Positions 5,822 to 27,161 of a stretch of 27,161 bases of DNA are shown in pieces; the first letter of the stretch is position 1, and each line of letters begins with the position of its first letter. The notes under the pieces were generated by a model. That model was not told where the DNA came from and did no database searches. It saw nothing but the letters and a program-made list of their open reading frames with translations. The translations under genes were made by a program, and so were the position numbers. Origin of the DNA: a virus; IMG/VR virus record IMGVR_UViG_3300028840_001495, positions 1 through 27,161 of that record. One strand, written 5' to 3'.

Positions 5822-5996
5822 TAATTCAGCCGCATGGGTTCGTCATGAGGAGGAATCGCGATTCATCGAAGTCCCGTGCCAGAACTGCGGAAAGCCTGTC
5901 CGTGTCTATGCGCCGAGTGGTGTATGGCGAGGATGCGCGTTCTGCCGAGACTGCCTCGACACCACAGGCACGTATATCTACCGAGAGGCATGGTGA
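5811..5996 (+). CDS. Small zinc-ribbon protein
   Basis: A 61-residue protein with GGAGGTGA at 5797-5804, six bases before the ATG. It has CQNCGKPVRVY at residues 23-33 and CAFCRDCL at 42-49, a four-cysteine (plus one) zinc ribbon. The second knuckle has an extra cysteine. Proteins of this size may bind nucleic acid or protein through the ribbon; nothing more can be said. The first 11 bases overlap the previous gene. Confidence 0.75.
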   Translation: MGSDNSAAWVRHEEESRFIEVPCQNCGKPVRVYAPSGVWRGCAFCRDCLDTTGTYIYREAW

Positions 5997-6002
5997 TCGG
6001 CG

Positions 6003-6287
6003 ATGCCTGAGATGACGGCAGAGGAAAGGGCAAAGTCGTTCATTGAATCGTTGCTGATCAGCATTCATTGGAACGGAGAGCGGAGCGAGCATCCTCATGA
6101 TGTCAAGTGGCTCGCTGCGCGGGTGAAGCAGCTTATTCCGAGCGTGATGCCTTTTCTCCTCGCCGCCCAACGCGAGGCCGAGGAGCGGATGAGGGAGCGG
6201 TGCATTCTAGCGGTTGGCGCTGGGCAGAATGGAGCAGTTGGAGCTTACATCCGCGCCCTGCCGTCGGAGTACGGAGAGGACAAGTGA
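6003..6287 (+). CDS. Hypothetical helical protein
   Basis: A 94-residue protein that is mostly helical by composition. A 14-base stretch GGTGATCGGCGATG covers its start (5992-6005) and also the start of the preceding gene (5800-5813), so the two translation start regions look copied. Residues 25-60 contain HPHDVKWLAARVKQLIPSV followed by a charged helix EAEERMRERC. No domain is recognised. The stop TGA overlaps the GTG start of the next gene. Confidence 0.72.
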   Translation: MPEMTAEERAKSFIESLLISIHWNGERSEHPHDVKWLAARVKQLIPSVMPFLLAAQREAEERMRERCILAVGAGQNGAVGAYIRALPSEYGEDK

Positions 6288-17906: not shown

Positions 17907-18356
17907 ATGGCACAGCATCACGCGACACAGAAGTCGGTGATTGTCCGGTCGACCCCCGAGGGGCCGATCCAGAAGGAATGGATCATGGACGCGGCTTGCC
18001 TGCCAGGCATGGCGGTCGAGTACGCAAGCTCGACGCGCATCCAGGTCTTGTCGGCGACGCTTGACCCGACGCTACGGGTCGTTGTCGAGAGCGGCACGAT
18101 CCCGTCGGACGGAACGTACGCGAGCGGCGACCAGATGCCGTTCATCGTGCCTCAGCGCGGTGACGAGGTCATGGTCTACGCGACGGCGGCGGCTCTGTCG
18201 ACGCTGGCGGTCGGGAATGAGCTGGTCTCGGACGGGGCCGGGTTCCTGATCTATGCGGCCTCCCCGATTGTGGGCGAGGCGATGGCCGTGGTCATGGAAG
18301 CTGCGACGATCGCGGCGGACCCAGGTCTGACGCAGGTCATCGTGGAGGTGTTGTGA
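17907..18356 (+). CDS. Putative head decoration protein
   Basis: A 149-residue protein between the protease/scaffold gene and the major capsid gene, the usual place of a lambda gpD-like decoration or cement protein. It is rich in beta-strand and Ala/Val/Thr residues and in turns (VIVRSTPEGPIQKEWI, DGTYASGDQMPFIVPQRGDE), with no cysteine cluster apart from one Cys. AAGGAG at 17889-17894 is a little far upstream. Sequence similarity to a decoration family is not obvious, so the call rests on position and composition. Confidence 0.65.
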   Translation: MAQHHATQKSVIVRSTPEGPIQKEWIMDAACLPGMAVEYASSTRIQVLSATLDPTLRVVVESGTIPSDGTYASGDQMPFIVPQRGDEVMVYATAAALSTLAVGNELVSDGAGFLIYAASPIVGEAMAVVMEAATIAADPGLTQVIVEVL

Positions 18357-19357
18357 TGAGTTACCAAGTCGGAGATGTACAGATTGGGACGACGGAAGCG
18401 CTGTTGGGCGGGTCCAACAATGTGCTCAGGATTCTCCGGTCGAATGGGTGGAATCTTGGCGCGCTCCGTACGAACGCAACGCTCCCGAAGAACGCATGGA
18501 TCGCCATTGACAACACCGTGCAAGAGGTTGCTGGTCAGCGCCTGAACGCGATCGCCGACTTGCAATCGCGCGGGTTTACCCGTGACCTCGGTGGTCTCGG
18601 CATCCTCTACGACTACTGGCAGAATGCGTCGGATGGCTTGACCGCACGGCAAGACATGGATGGCACGTCGACCGGCGATGAGAACGCTCTCGATTTCGGG
18701 GAGACGGGTGTGCCCATTCCGATCACGCACTGCGACTTCCGGATTCCGATCCGGCAGCTTGCTGCGATGGAGCGGTCGGGCACTCCGCTCGACACGACGA
18801 TGGTCGCCCAAGCGACGCGTAAGGTCGTGGAGAAGCTCGAGGACACGCTTGTCAACGGGTCGACCGTCGTGTCAGGCGGCAACTCGCTGTACGGCTACAT
18901 GACGTACACGAACTCGAACGCGATCAGCACCCTGACCGGCAACTGGACGGGCACGATCGCCGGCTGCGAGGCCGATGTGCGGCTTCTGATCGCCGAGCTT
19001 GAGAACGACAGGCACTGGGGACCGTACATGCTGTACGTCCACGCGAACGAGTGGAACGACCTACGGCAATCCCACGCCTACACGGGCAAGAGCTACTACC
19101 AGATCCTGAAGGACATGGCCGGTATCGAGGACATCAAGCCGCTTGGCGTATTGGCCGCGAATGACATCCTTCTCGTCGAGATGAGCCGGGAAACCGTCGA
19201 CCTCGACATCGGGGTGGACATCCAGGTCGTCGAATGGCCGACGCACGGCGGGATGCAGATGAACTTCAAGGTCATGGCCGCGATGGCACCGCGCATCAAG
19301 GCGGACTACGCCGGACGGTGTGGAGTGGCTTACGACACAGACATTGGCAGCAGCTAG
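18356..19357 (+). CDS. Major capsid protein (HK97 fold, encapsulin-like type)
   Basis: A 333-residue protein. The ATG at 18356 overlaps the previous stop (TGATG), with GGAGGTG at 18344-18350. The pattern matches phage capsid proteins of the encapsulin-like HK97 group: NSLYGYMTYTN near residues 178-188, HWGPYMLYVHANEW near 221, YYQILKDMAGIEDI, then FKVMAAMAPRIKADYAGRCGV near the end. It forms the icosahedral shell. The N-terminal part (1-60) may be the scaffold-interacting arm. It also contains ILYDYWQ, found again in a small protein at 20466. No leading delta-domain cleavage site is evident. Confidence 0.9.
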   Translation: MSYQVGDVQIGTTEALLGGSNNVLRILRSNGWNLGALRTNATLPKNAWIAIDNTVQEVAGQRLNAIADLQSRGFTRDLGGLGILYDYWQNASDGLTARQDMDGTSTGDENALDFGETGVPIPITHCDFRIPIRQLAAMERSGTPLDTTMVAQATRKVVEKLEDTLVNGSTVVSGGNSLYGYMTYTNSNAISTLTGNWTGTIAGCEADVRLLIAELENDRHWGPYMLYVHANEWNDLRQSHAYTGKSYYQILKDMAGIEDIKPLGVLAANDILLVEMSRETVDLDIGVDIQVVEWPTHGGMQMNFKVMAAMAPRIKADYAGRCGVAYDTDIGSS

Positions 19358-20469: not shown

Positions 20470-20639
20470 AGAGGCGACGACGCGCTTCCACTGTAGACGA
20501 AGAAGCGATCCGAAGATCGGTAACGGATCTCTACCACGATTGGGTAAAGCGCGGACGTCCTGGAAACACGGAATGTGGCTACACTTGCATCCTCTATGAC
20601 TACTGGCAGACTAAACATGAACGTGAGGAGAAGCCATGA
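20466..20639 (+). CDS. 57-residue protein sharing ILYDYWQ with the capsid protein
   Basis: A short frame from an ATG in ATGA overlap to a TGA that overlaps the next start. It opens MKRRRRASTVDEEA, continues with a helix LYHDWVKRGR, and contains CGYTCILYDYWQTKHE. The coding DNA for that heptapeptide matches the capsid gene at 23 of 24 bases (18600-18623 vs 20587-20610). The protein is basic at the start and has two cysteines close together. No family recognised. It may contact the capsid. Confidence 0.65.
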   Translation: MKRRRRASTVDEEAIRRSVTDLYHDWVKRGRPGNTECGYTCILYDYWQTKHEREEKP

Positions 20640-21055
20640 AAACGGTCATTGTTTCGGGCTACTTTAACCCGGTACACATTGGCCACCTTGCCTATTTCCG
20701 GGCGGCGAAGCGGCTCGGTGATGAACTCTGGGTCATCGTCAACAACGACCGCCAAGTCGAACTCAAGGGCAGCGTACCCTTCATGTGCGCTGCGGACAGG
20801 CTGCGGATCATCTCCGAGATGAGTGTCGTCGATCGCGCGGTCATGTCGATCGACGAGGACCGTACCGTCTGCAAGACCGTGGCCTCGCTGTGGGACGACC
20901 AACACGAGTTCGTGTTCGCGAACGGCGGGGATGCCACCCACGACACCGTACCGGAGGTCGTGGTCTGCGAAGACCTTGGAATTGAGCTTGCCTTCGGTGT
21001 CGGAGGCCAGAAGATCGCGGCGAGTTCTGAGTTGCTCAGCAAGGCGGCGGTATGA
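20636..21055 (+). CDS. Cytidylyltransferase-like nucleotidyltransferase
   Basis: A 139-residue protein with the HIGH motif GYFNPVHIGHLAYF at residues 8-21, the nucleotide-binding turn of TagD, RfaE and related enzymes. The late GGQKIAASSELLSK matches the position of the ISSS-type phosphate-binding element. Such enzymes transfer a nucleotide to a phosphorylated sugar, alditol, pantetheine or similar compound. The length is the minimal one for the family. Within a head-tail module this is unusual, and it may feed a glycosyl or alditol donor to the glycosyltransferase at 25076. The substrate cannot be told from sequence. It overlaps the neighbours at both ends. Confidence 0.82.
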   Translation: MKTVIVSGYFNPVHIGHLAYFRAAKRLGDELWVIVNNDRQVELKGSVPFMCAADRLRIISEMSVVDRAVMSIDEDRTVCKTVASLWDDQHEFVFANGGDATHDTVPEVVVCEDLGIELAFGVGGQKIAASSELLSKAAV

Positions 21056-21527: not shown

Positions 21528-22034
21528 ATGAAATCGACGATCTCGGCACTTGCGAATGGCACGGAATTGGTCCGCGTAACGAAGTTCAACGCGATGGCAC
21601 GATCCTTAGCTGACCGGCATTACTCCAGGGGGAAGCCAGGTAGCAACCAATTCATGCCACCTGGGGAGACGATTGTCCTCCTTGCGGCAGACGGATCCGC
21701 TGTCTTCGGTTGGTGGAGACCACACCCGAGAAGCGGGGTCAAACAGATGAATGGTTTCGACGGATGGACATGCACAATCTTCCGCAACGAGGGGACGGCC
21801 CTGTCAAGTGAGTTGATCCTGGAAGCAGAGGAATACCTATTGAATTCTGGCGTTACCGTCGGCCCTGACGGCTTCCTTACGTACGTTTTTGATGATCGAG
21901 TGCGGTCTGACAATCCAGGGTGTTGTTTCAAAAAAGCTGGGTGGGATGTAATCGGTCGATCTGCTGACGGCAAGAAGACTTTGTTACAGAAGATACCGGA
22001 AGAGGAGATGGGCGATGCGTGCATACCAAGTTGA
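21528..22034 (+). CDS. GNAT-like (Mom-like?) phage protein
   Basis: A 168-residue protein with a weak ribosome site (CAGG, then GAG near the ATG). Conserved-looking blocks are DRHYSRGKPG at 29-38, MPPGETIVLLAADGSAVFGW, WTCTIFRNEG with SSELILEAEEYL, TYVFDDRVR at 118-126, and NPGCCFKKAGW at 129-139. The strand/helix order and the terminal NPG-CF--AGW element resemble GNAT acetyltransferases, and the HYS motif recalls phage Mu Mom, which modifies adenine in DNA. I recall the family from phages, but not an assigned function. It sits among virion genes and overlaps the next gene by 20 bases. Confidence 0.6.
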   Translation: MKSTISALANGTELVRVTKFNAMARSLADRHYSRGKPGSNQFMPPGETIVLLAADGSAVFGWWRPHPRSGVKQMNGFDGWTCTIFRNEGTALSSELILEAEEYLLNSGVTVGPDGFLTYVFDDRVRSDNPGCCFKKAGWDVIGRSADGKKTLLQKIPEEEMGDACIPS

Positions 22035-22417: not shown

Positions 22418-24703
22418 GTGAAGTACCCGGAAACCGATAGTGTCCGAGACCTAGGGCGAATCGACACCGCTGCGCACGCGGGTGCGGTTGACGACGCGAC
22501 GAAGGCCATGGGCTACCACAAGCAGAATGTAACGAACACTGAGTCAATTCTCGTCATCCTCGGCGGTGCGGCGATCCAGCTCCGCACGGAGCAATCGGTC
22601 AGCGCCGGCGTCGAGGAGAACGCGCTGATGCAGTTCTCGATTGGGCTGATGGACGTCGACTCAGGAGCCGTCGCTTCTGACGACATTGACATCACAGGTA
22701 TCACCGCGACGATCGAGAAGTCGACGGGCGGCGGTGCGTTTTCGGACGCAGGTCTGACGGCGATCACGTTTGGCAAGGAAGCCGGACGCGTGTTCGTGGA
22801 CTACCAGTTCAAGGCGGCCGAGTGGGCTGTGGGCGACGTGTACAAGATCGTCGTCACGGGGATCACCGCGGAGGTCGGAGGCGATACGGCGTACGTCCCC
22901 GCGATGGTATGGTCAAACTACATCGTCGAACACGCGGACGTCAAGGCTGCAGTGGACACGATCGAGGCGACGCTGGGCGCGGTCGACGACGCTGCAGCGG
23001 AAGGCGCCGTCACCGATGCCGATACCGCGATGGCGTACCTGAAACAACTCGTCACGGCTGCGATCACCATTGCGGCCGACGTGGTCAACATCGACGGCGA
23101 CGCGATGCGCGGCACAGACTCCGCAGCCCTCGCGTCGGTCCTAGGCGCACTAGACGACACAGCTGCAGCCGGGGCGGTCACAGACGCCGACACGGTGATG
23201 GCCTACGTCAAGCAACTTGTGACCGCAATCATCACGATAGCCGGTGACGTGGAAAACCTGGACGGTGACGCAATGAGGGGGACCGATTCAGCCGCCCTCG
23301 CTTCCGTCTTGGGTGCACTGGACGATGCGACGGCTGAAGGCGCGGTGACGGACGCCGACACCGCCATGGCTTACCTGAAACAGCTAGTCACGGCGATCAT
23401 AACCATCGCAGGCGACGTCGAGAATCTGGACGGGGACGCCATGCGAGGGACGGATAGCGCCGCGCTGGCTTCGGTGTTGGGTGCCCTGGACTCTGCAGCC
23501 GCTTCGGGGGCTGTCTCGGATGCCAAGGTCGTCATGGCGTACGTCAAGCAGCTGGTCACATTACTGATTGACGGGACATACGGGCTGTCTGCACTGCAAA
23601 CGGACGTTGCGGCGATCCCCACGGATGCCCAACGGGGAACCGACGACGCCGCGTTGGCTTCCGTGCTTGGGGCGTTGAACGATGCCGCTGCAGAGGGTGC
23701 CGTCACGGATGCGGACACCGCAATGGCATACCTCAAGCAGTTGGTGACTGCGATTATCACGGTTGCGTCAGACGTTGAAAACCTCGACGGGGATGCGATG
23801 CGTGGAACAGATAGCGCAGCGCTTGCCTCGGTACTCGGGGCACTTGACGACGCGGCGGCTGAGGGTGCAGTGACCGACGCGGATACGGCCATGCAGTACG
23901 TCAAGCAGATCGTCACCTTGCTACTGGACGGCACGTATGGACTGTCGGCCGTTCAGACGATCGTCAACGCGATTCCGACGACTGCCATGAGAGGGACGGA
24001 CAACGCGGCCCTCGCCTCGACGCTGGAAGACGCAATGCAAAAGGCGACCGGGCCAGCGTACAACCAGGATACCGACAGCCTGGAAGCGATCTCGGAAGCG
24101 GTAGCGGCGATTCCTGCGGATGCGCAACGTGGGACGGACGATGCTGCACTAGCGTCTGTCGTCGGTGCCTTAGACGATGCTGAGGCGTCCGGACCGGTAA
24201 CCGATGCCGATACGGTTATGCAGTACGTCAAGCAGCTAGTGACGGCCGTAATCTCGATCCTGGAGGACACGGGCACCGATGGCGTTGTGTTGGGGTCGAA
24301 AGCTGCAGCATTCGGGAAGCTGGCCGGCGAGGATCAAATCGCAGCCACGACGGAGGACCTGAACCAGGCGGCCGGAGACTACGATCTGTTCACCGGTACG
24401 ACGCAACCGGTCCTACTCACGGCCCTCACGATCAAGATGCCGGACGACGTAGCGTCCGATGCGACCTTGACCAGCATCTCCGTACAGACGGACGATACGA
24501 CGGCAGCGGAGATCATCTCGTCCGACGACGGTGCGGTCGCGAACCTGACCGCCGAAGCTGAGTTCTCGTGGACTGGCGCGGTCCGGATCAACACCGGGAC
24601 GAAGATCCAGTTGACGATCAACGGCGGCGCGGAGGGTGCCGAGTACATCACGACGGTTACCGCACTTTGCAAGGCGATTGCTGATGGAGGATACCTTGCG
24701 TAG
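22418..24703 (+). CDS. 761-residue tandem-repeat virion protein
   Basis: A large acidic protein with a GTG start preceded by AGGAGGTG at 22406-22413. Residues 12-36 are a degenerate first repeat (LGRIDTAAHAGAVDDATKAM), then a beta-rich domain to about residue 185. Seven units follow from residue 186, each with LGALDD-A-GAVTDADT-MAY-KQLVT and a following RGTD-AALASV. Unit lengths are 56, 56, 56, 63, 56, 109 residues, and a partial last unit. The C-terminal 130 residues are beta-rich. This layout suits a fibre, stalk or head-surface protein; there are no hydrophobic membrane parts or enzymes. Function is inferred from position and repeat nature only. Confidence 0.8.
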   Translation: MKYPETDSVRDLGRIDTAAHAGAVDDATKAMGYHKQNVTNTESILVILGGAAIQLRTEQSVSAGVEENALMQFSIGLMDVDSGAVASDDIDITGITATIEKSTGGGAFSDAGLTAITFGKEAGRVFVDYQFKAAEWAVGDVYKIVVTGITAEVGGDTAYVPAMVWSNYIVEHADVKAAVDTIEATLGAVDDAAAEGAVTDADTAMAYLKQLVTAAITIAADVVNIDGDAMRGTDSAALASVLGALDDTAAAGAVTDADTVMAYVKQLVTAIITIAGDVENLDGDAMRGTDSAALASVLGALDDATAEGAVTDADTAMAYLKQLVTAIITIAGDVENLDGDAMRGTDSAALASVLGALDSAAASGAVSDAKVVMAYVKQLVTLLIDGTYGLSALQTDVAAIPTDAQRGTDDAALASVLGALNDAAAEGAVTDADTAMAYLKQLVTAIITVASDVENLDGDAMRGTDSAALASVLGALDDAAAEGAVTDADTAMQYVKQIVTLLLDGTYGLSAVQTIVNAIPTTAMRGTDNAALASTLEDAMQKATGPAYNQDTDSLEAISEAVAAIPADAQRGTDDAALASVVGALDDAEASGPVTDADTVMQYVKQLVTAVISILEDTGTDGVVLGSKAAAFGKLAGEDQIAATTEDLNQAAGDYDLFTGTTQPVLLTALTIKMPDDVASDATLTSISVQTDDTTAAEIISSDDGAVANLTAEAEFSWTGAVRINTGTKIQLTINGGAEGAEYITTVTALCKAIADGGYLA
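22973..24271 (+). repeat. Seven coding repeats with synonymous-codon divergence
   Basis: Unit starts are 22973, 23141, 23309, 23477, 23666, 23834 and 24161. The protein is nearly invariant while the DNA is not: over KQLVTAIITIAGDVENLD at 23210-23263 and 23378-23431, 14 of 18 codons differ, all synonymously. Units 4 and 6 carry an alternative insert (LLIDGTYGLSALQ / LLLDGTYGLSAVQ). Confidence 0.9.
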
Positions 24704-24935: not shown

Positions 24936-25075
24936 GTCGGAGGAGACCATGAGCATTGCCGAGCTGGGACGTGGTCCGGCTAGAGGATAGGTACGGGAGG
25001 AATCTGGGCGAGGCATAGAGGGAGGACACGGCGCGTCGTCATCGTGTCGGCGTGCCGCGAAAGGAGATCGACTCC

Positions 25076-27161
25076 ATGAAGATTGTGTGGTGTGGTAATC
25101 ATCACGGGCAACCGACTGGCTACGGCGTCATCTGCAAGAACGTCGTCAGTCACATCCAGAACAACTCGAAGCACGAGATGGTCGAGTTCGCCATCTCGGG
25201 AATCCAGCGTGTTCTACCATCGACGTGGGGAAACGTCAAGGTCTACGGAGCGTCGAACTACGGCGGGCAATTTGGACTTGGCGATTGGGCGACCGTCCAA
25301 GCGATCGAGAAGCCGGACGTGTGGATGCTAAACTTCGACACGTGGGCTGCGGGGCCAAACATCTCGAAGATCGGACTCAAGTACGCGGTCTACCCGCCGA
25401 TTGACCATGATCCGCTACCGCCTGTGTGGTCAGACGTGCTGAAGGGCGCGGTAGACATCGTTCCCTACTGCCAGTTCGGGGAACGCGTACTACGGAAAGG
25501 ACTGGGCATCACCGCGCCGATCAGCCCGTACATTCCGCACGGCGTTGATACGCAGGTCTTCAGGCCGATGGACGTCATCAAGTCCGAGGTCTTCGGCAGA
25601 GAAACGCCTGAAGACGCGTTCGTCATCGGCATCTACAAGAACAACCAGGGAACGCGAGCGAAATACGACGTGCAGCTACAGGCGTGCAAAATGTTCATTG
25701 ACACGGTGAAGGACGACAACGTGCGAATTTACGTGCACGCATTCCAGACGGGACATCAGGCGCCGGACCTTGCGGAGCTTGTCCAGCGGTTCGGGCTGAC
25801 GCAGCACGTGTACATGATCTCGCCGATGCGCTACCGCTATGGGATCAGCGAAGAAGACCTGGCGCGGACGTACAACGCGTGCGGCGTCATCCTGAACGCC
25901 GTCTCCGGCGAGGGCTGGGGTCTGCCGATCACTGAGGCCTTCGCTTGTGGAAGGCCGGTGATCGCGACAGCGTTCTCGTCGATGCCCGAACTGCTCACTG
26001 GCGCAGAGGGGGAGATCAAGAAGGAGCTACTCGCGACAGGTGAGTGCTACGAGGCGGAGCGCGGCTGGCTCGTACCGACGGCGGGAACGGAGTGGACGCT
26101 TGGTAAGCATTCGACGCGGCGCGTCTTCCATGCGCGCGACGTGGCCGGGGCGCTCATCAAGGCGTACGAGGATCCGGGCAAACGCCGCGAGATGGGGCAA
26201 AGAGCGCACGAGTGGGTGCAGAAACTGGACTGGCGGAAGGTCGGCGACCAGTGGATCGACTACTTTGACAGACTCTCCGAAAAGGTGACGCCGAAACAGT
26301 ACACGTGGAAGCCTCGCGAGGATACGGAGCCCGTCGGTCAGATGAGGACGGCGTGCGTCGTTTTTTCGTTCAACCGGCCGGACTACCTAGTGCAGACGCT
26401 CGACTCGTTGGCGAAAAACACGATGGCCGACGAGTGCGACTGGTATCTCTACCAGGATGGCTGGAGAAACAACCCGCGCTACCCGTACTGCTCTGAGGAA
26501 CACGAGGAGAACCACCGTACGCGCGTACAGCAGTGCGTTGAGATCATGGAGGGCTTCCCGTTCAAGTACAAGGAGATCGTCGCCAAGGAGTACAACGTCT
26601 GCATCGGTCGGCAACTCCAAGAAGCGAAGGAACGGCTGTTCAAGGAGTACGACCACGTGATCTTTTTCGACGACGACCACGTTGTGAGCCGGGACTACAT
26701 CGATGTTTTGCTCCGGATGCACGAGCAGTTCCCGGATGCGCTGGTCGGTGCGCAGGCGACGGAGTCGCGACACATTCCGATCGACGCGGCGCTTGATGAG
26801 GTTGGTATCACGCTGGAGCACAAGGGCGACGCCATTCCCGTTGCCGGTCGTTGGCGCTGGCTTGGCTACCTCGTGCCGAAGTCCGCCTACGAGGCGACGA
26901 AGGACGAGATGGACGAGTACATGGAGTTCATTGGTGCAAGCTACCGAAACATCCCGGACCACGCGGTGCGCGTGAAGTACGGCGTGGTTGTCACGGGGTT
27001 CGACGGAGTGCTTGACAAGATCTGCGACCAGAAGGAGATCAGGCGGATTGCGACCGTAGTCCCGCGCGCACGGTACATCGGCAAGGTCGGCACGTTCAGC
27101 ACGCCGGAGGCTTACGAGAAGATGGGCTTCCCGCCGAACGACCGATACGAGTTCGACGAAC
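25076..27161 (+). CDS. Two-domain glycosyltransferase (GT4-like plus GT2-like), partial
   Basis: An open frame of 695 complete codons with no stop before the window end; AAAGGAG precedes the ATG. Residues 1-415 look like a GT-B fold: an opening IVWCGNHHGQPTGYGVI, PYIPHGVDTQVFRP near 159-172, and EGWGLPITEAFACGRPV with the E279 and E287 spacing of GT4 enzymes. From about residue 423 a GT-A/GT2-like domain follows: VVFSFNRPDYLVQTLDSL, and FFDDDHV with D532 and D534 as the metal site. Together they could transfer two sugars in turn, onto virion protein, lipid or nucleic acid. A cluster of virion genes lies directly upstream, so decoration of the particle is likely. The C-terminus is missing. Confidence 0.85.
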   Translation, partial: MKIVWCGNHHGQPTGYGVICKNVVSHIQNNSKHEMVEFAISGIQRVLPSTWGNVKVYGASNYGGQFGLGDWATVQAIEKPDVWMLNFDTWAAGPNISKIGLKYAVYPPIDHDPLPPVWSDVLKGAVDIVPYCQFGERVLRKGLGITAPISPYIPHGVDTQVFRPMDVIKSEVFGRETPEDAFVIGIYKNNQGTRAKYDVQLQACKMFIDTVKDDNVRIYVHAFQTGHQAPDLAELVQRFGLTQHVYMISPMRYRYGISEEDLARTYNACGVILNAVSGEGWGLPITEAFACGRPVIATAFSSMPELLTGAEGEIKKELLATGECYEAERGWLVPTAGTEWTLGKHSTRRVFHARDVAGALIKAYEDPGKRREMGQRAHEWVQKLDWRKVGDQWIDYFDRLSEKVTPKQYTWKPREDTEPVGQMRTACVVFSFNRPDYLVQTLDSLAKNTMADECDWYLYQDGWRNNPRYPYCSEEHEENHRTRVQQCVEIMEGFPFKYKEIVAKEYNVCIGRQLQEAKERLFKEYDHVIFFDDDHVVSRDYIDVLLRMHEQFPDALVGAQATESRHIPIDAALDEVGITLEHKGDAIPVAGRWRWLGYLVPKSAYEATKDEMDEYMEFIGASYRNIPDHAVRVKYGVVVTGFDGVLDKICDQKEIRRIATVVPRARYIGKVGTFSTPEAYEKMGFPPNDRYEFDE

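Follow-up and report, generated by a model that had tools for sequence, protein, structure and literature searches.

The window analysed here, a virus record of 27,161 bases, carries a gene (22418–24703, plus strand) in which high protein identity between tandem repeats is combined with full saturation of their codons, and it is this combination that is unusual. We consider it probable that the repeats are very old copies of a strongly conserved block whose codons have come to equilibrium. A sequence-only reading of the same DNA had pointed to protein-identical repeats with scrambled codons at 22973–24271, attributed them to strong selection on the protein, and proposed in addition that the DNA was being pushed apart, possibly to avoid recombination between the repeats. 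The repeats are real and lie in frame within the gene, and the selection on the protein is borne out below. The pushing apart is not, as the units share codons about as often as randomly paired synonymous codons would, with a deficit that is only borderline.

The gene is preceded by genes for portal, head morphogenesis, head maturation protease, decoration, capsid and neck proteins and is followed by a glycosyltransferase-like reading frame. Its 761-residue product (Table 1) consists of a beta-rich N-terminal domain, six full units of 56 or 63 residues accompanied by degenerate ones, and a beta-rich C-terminal domain. It is most likely a modular structural protein of the virion, a fibre or stalk of the head, neck or tail. 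Two structure models, both poor (mean pLDDT 43.0 and 39.5), predict with low confidence a beta domain, two helices per unit and a second beta domain. They support the gross plan only, and with models of this quality the fold and the stalk role of the protein are not established.

Table 1. Layout of the repeat-containing gene, in positions of the window
Feature	Positions	Strand	Remarks
Repeat-containing gene	22418..24703	+	761 aa, GTG start
N-terminal beta-rich domain	22418..22966	+	contains degenerate module copy
Module 0, degenerate 31-aa core within N-terminal domain (RDLGRIDTAAHAGAVDDATKAMGYHKQNVTN)	22445..22537	+	HMM of unit core
Unit 1 (u1), 56 aa	22967..23134	+	
Unit 2 (u2), 56 aa	23135..23302	+	
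Unit 3 (u3), 56 aa	23303..23470	+	
Unit 4 (u4), 63-aa variant, linker LLIDGTYGLSALQTDVAAIPTDAQ	23471..23659	+	
Unit 5 (u5), 56 aa	23660..23827	+	
Unit 6 (u6), 63-aa variant	23828..24016	+	
Degenerate unit, RGTDDAALAS end retained	24017..24154	+	
Unit 7 (u7), 31-aa core only	24155..24247	+	HMM of unit core
C-terminal beta-rich domain	24338..24700	+	

Among named phages, nothing matched the complete protein, its repeats or its N-terminal domain. The N-terminal domain has no match in Pfam, a PDB sequence search with the repeat protein returned none, and comparison of the module with Pfam, PHROGs and PDB gave no family beyond weak or compositional matches. A match to flagellar protein FlaF (Pfam PF07309; 32 bits, cut-off 23.6) covers residues 399–462 only, across parts of two units; it is lacking in all relatives scanned and was taken as compositional. 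Among environmental phages, both end domains are shared with L002 and L048. The N-terminal domain is 84% identical in L002 and 67% in L048, and the C-terminal domain 74% and 56%, respectively, with further relatives of the latter at 45–46% in L100–L103. The stalk repeats of L002 and L048 are of other kinds, the gene is split there into two reading frames with the C-terminal domain in each, and the module occurs once or twice, against eight times in the repeat gene.

Other genes of the window merit a brief mention. The capsid protein (18353–19357) matches Linocin_M18/encapsulin (Pfam PF04454, E 4e-15) and DUF6260; among named phages it comes closest to those of Brevundimonas and of haloarchaea, at 30–34%. 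A Cytidylyltransferase-like gene (20636–21055; Pfam PF01467) lies amid neck and tail-completion genes, and L002 has one too. The gene at 21528–22034 has a GC3 of 0.57, compared with about 0.77 in its neighbours, and no Pfam match; it is missing at the same place in L002 and is probably a recent insertion. Finally, a long reading frame at 25052–27160 joins two glycosyltransferase-like parts that are separate genes in L002.

Units of equal length share 76–93% of their residues and 65–73% of their nucleotides; for the 56-residue units alone the protein identity is 80–93%. Protein and DNA identities are 91 and 73% for u2/u3, 93 and 73% for u3/u5, and 88 and 70% for u2/u5. The mismatches fall mostly on third codon positions (7, 1 and 38 at the first, second and third positions in u3/u5), and each pair among u1, u2, u3 and u5 differs at only 4–11 of 56 residues. 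The codon list confirms that 18 identical residues shared by u2 and u3 (KQLVTAIITIAGDVENLD) are encoded with 14 of 18 codons different. Such a window is no signal by itself, as the worst window of shuffled sequences averages 4.4 matching codons and the observed one has 4 (P = 0.52). The Arg of RGTD, already noticed for its changing codons, is encoded by CGC, AGG, CGA, CGG, CGT and AGA in u1–u6, each of the six Arg codons occurring once. A serine was likewise said to switch between TCN and AGY. It does (TCC, TCA, AGC and AGC in u1, u2, u3 and u5), in a column that is itself variable, with D or N in u4 and u6; ordinary intermediates thus exist, and we do not accept the switch as proof of forced divergence.

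Across all units, the same codon is used in 237 of the 717 pairs of identical residues, a codon excess of -0.03. Shuffling of codons between like residues inside the repeats gives an expectation of 257.6 +/- 12.7 (P = 0.049), and shuffling within units one of 252.1 (P = 0.093). Because codon identity matches that of codons reshuffled within the repeats, the synonymous sites between units are saturated. Shuffling over the whole gene raises the expectation to 278.5 (P = 0.002). The references disagree because codon use is more even in the repeats than in the neighbouring genes: codon homozygosity is 0.361 in the repeats and 0.416 in the neighbouring late genes (z = -3.2). An excess of codon differences over random synonymous choice is therefore borderline in this gene. 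The comparison of observed with expected codon identity gave no clear excess of differences, and what stays of the original interpretation is that the repeats are very old and conserved.

Selection against DNA homology would be the mechanism if the DNA were indeed pushed apart: units sharing long identical DNA would be lost through recombination, synonymous changes that break identity would be favoured, and codons would diverge faster than neutrally. The low codon identity relative to whole-gene codon usage fits this explanation. So do the identity below simulated saturation (268 shared codons when simulated from the codon frequencies of the repeats themselves, P about 0.02–0.035), the flattening of codon use in the repeats but not in the gene's end domains (z = +1.3 for the N-terminal and +0.8 for the C-terminal domain), and the appearance of all six Arg codons across six units. 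However, when codons are drawn from the repeats alone, the deficit reaches only P = 0.05–0.09, and the footprint expected in the lengths of identical runs does not appear. The longest run, 18 nt, is not shortened relative to within-column shuffles (17.5), and runs of at least 8 nt are not depleted (31 versus 34 expected, P = 0.21). Shortened runs gave P = 0.002 in one version of the test only and were rejected as a sign of recombination avoidance; P was 0.05 with hand-set unit alignments, 0.14 within units and 0.21 within columns. Ten other saturated arrays likewise show no codon deficit (417 shared codons observed, 407 expected, z = +0.7), which argues against any general avoidance. The flattened codon use was rejected as a family-wide footprint, other arrays having no such trend (z from -2.3 to +4.3), and z varies between -4.7 and +4.6 among the remaining genes of the contig. 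Active avoidance of DNA identity in the repeat gene is thus not established, and we hold this explanation to be quite improbable. We are hardly less doubtful of the proposal that the codons of these repeats, and perhaps those of L022 (see below), are under selection, or deletion survivorship, against shared DNA, so that divergence outruns the neutral clock. The mild deficit of codon identity and the flattened codon use in this gene remain unexplained.

A synonymous substitution model, simplified by fixing kappa at 3 and treating the units as a star, sets the lower 95% bound of dS at 2.0–3.25 for the unit pairs, which excludes recent duplication or gene conversion for each pair. Star-tree simulation places the requirement higher, at dS above about 4. 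By arithmetic, dN/dS for u3/u5 is below about 0.015. The few residue changes noted above, set against such synonymous distances, are those of a protein under strong selection. As controls, the portal protein differs from that of sister phage L051 by 9% at dS 0.98, and the N-terminal domain from that of L002 by 16% at dS 1.75; ordinary genes of sister phages at a protein divergence similar to that of the units have dS of about 1. In orthologous phage genes the median codon excess is 0.40 at 85–90% protein identity and 0.50 (range 0.23–0.85) at 90–95%; a few antisense frames passed the filter for this set, but the portal and head rows (0.34–0.41) are sense. Unlike these genes, unit pairs at 85–95% protein identity have no codon excess left.

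A profile of the 31-residue core detects copies in about 35 other reading frames on contigs of environmental phages, and the module is spread over many uncultivated phages without a description in Pfam and PHROGs. A further match, a KQLVT module around position 5001 of L049, lies on a contig assigned by binning to a Nanohaloarchaea MAG; this contig may be a virus or provirus of the archaeon. Copies that are 80–90% identical between different phages have a codon excess of 0.02–0.05 (30 module pairs). Because these cross-phage copies are codon-random as well, the module itself must be conserved over saturated distances. Another saturated array is found in the unrelated phage L022 (about 5851–6234), where two 64-residue units agree at 60 of 64 residues while their codons are random (18 of 58 shared, dS > 4.75).

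Recent duplication had been expected to leave the opposite pattern, and this is what we see elsewhere. L006, L007, L009, L017 and L036 contain recent duplicates with clear codon excess, amounting to 0.2–0.8 in the first four (segments at >= 80%). Exact repeats are 89 nt long in L006, 95 nt in L007, 35 nt in L017 and 50 nt in L036. Arrays of the RGTD/KQLVT kind thus form a continuum from fresh duplicates to saturation, and since other relatives show recent duplications, array turnover appears to be ordinary. It might be asked whether saturated arrays are merely the ones that are recovered: long exact repeats interrupt short-read assembly, so intact arrays in metagenomes would be enriched for codon-diverged ones, from which a reader would then pick out an extreme case. 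The recently duplicated array of L007 does run past the end of its contig, and the array gene of L017 starts at a contig end. Yet arrays with exact repeats of 89–95 nt do assemble (L006, L007), and such enrichment is unable to produce saturation within the repeat gene. We find this account unlikely.

A variant of the explanation by old units is that the array was assembled as a mosaic, its units having been acquired singly from different phages that carried already diverged copies of the conserved module, and never having had a recent common DNA ancestry within this genome. In phages built on other backbones (L002, L034, L038) this module subtype is present as a single copy, and relatives exchange stalk modules, L002 carrying LYTCLVTDRLD-type repeats in place of the KQLVT type found here. 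Moreover, the units resemble each other at the DNA level no more than they resemble modules of unrelated phages, both comparisons being equally codon-random. On the other hand, u1–u6 share residues, TDADTAMAY for example, that make them closer to each other than to nearly all outside copies, which points to duplication within the lineage, and no class of outside copies has excess codon identity to the array units. The mosaic variant seems to us rather unlikely. Protein scans with the N-terminal domain, the repeats and the C-terminal domain turned up no sister phage with the array, and neither did the records of phages with related portals; the units may have arisen either by old tandem duplication or by transfer of modules that had already diverged.

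The reading that we prefer, old units under strong purifying selection, can be outlined as follows. The protein would form a helical stalk of repeated small two-helix modules between two beta domains. The module would be under strong purifying selection wherever it is present, here and in unrelated phages. The units would have arisen long ago, via duplication or module transfer, with synonymous sites at equilibrium since then and no DNA-level homogenisation after their origin. Copies would be gained, lost and exchanged, and the long-lived ones would drift to codon equilibrium while their protein sequence is held. The data show the saturation, the small amount of protein change relative to synonymous change and the spread of the module; the stalk role is inferred, as is the choice of purifying selection over faster synonymous change as the cause. 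With a longest exact DNA repeat of 18 nt, little DNA homology is left, so homogenisation is now unlikely and the array should resist homologous recombination. Such stability should be a consequence of divergence and need not be its cause.

Some observations speak against age as the explanation. Relative to synonymous change, the repeats have changed far less in protein than the portal has, which is surprising for a stalk in which the number of units varies between relatives. The shared codons are somewhat fewer than even simulated saturation predicts (237 versus 268), and codons in the repeats are more even than in neighbouring late genes.

Phage structural genes can therefore carry repeats that are identical in protein and saturated in codons. 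If avoidance were nonetheless true, selection on DNA homology itself would become measurable in nature, and the array would be stabilised, a natural equivalent of synthetic repeat genes with scrambled codons. Our limited literature search, which is not proof of absence, found no paper on natural avoidance in phage repeats.

Modular fibre and stalk proteins of phages carry swappable repeats between conserved beta end domains. The repeat gene resembles them in its beta ends, its interchangeable middle and a unit number that varies among relatives; it differs in that its sequence matches none of the named fibre families of Pfam, PHROGs or PDB. The closest precedent for the repeats themselves is polyubiquitin, whose repeats likewise follow one another head to tail, with almost the same protein sequence but many synonymous differences between them. 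These differences were explained by strong purifying selection with birth-and-death evolution of old duplicates (Nei et al. 2000, in PMC10457151), a reading that has been disputed in favour of slow concerted evolution (PMC10457151). Polyubiquitin is, however, eukaryotic and is cleaved to free proteins, whereas the phage units stay in one structural protein; and within a species ubiquitin repeats usually retain some synonymous similarity, whereas the units of the phage array retain none. Engineered repeat genes such as the TReSR designs use deliberate synonymous codon scrambling and, like the phage array, produce the same protein repeats from different DNA (PMC10096509). Their scrambling is designed; in the phage array, equilibrium after long divergence suffices.
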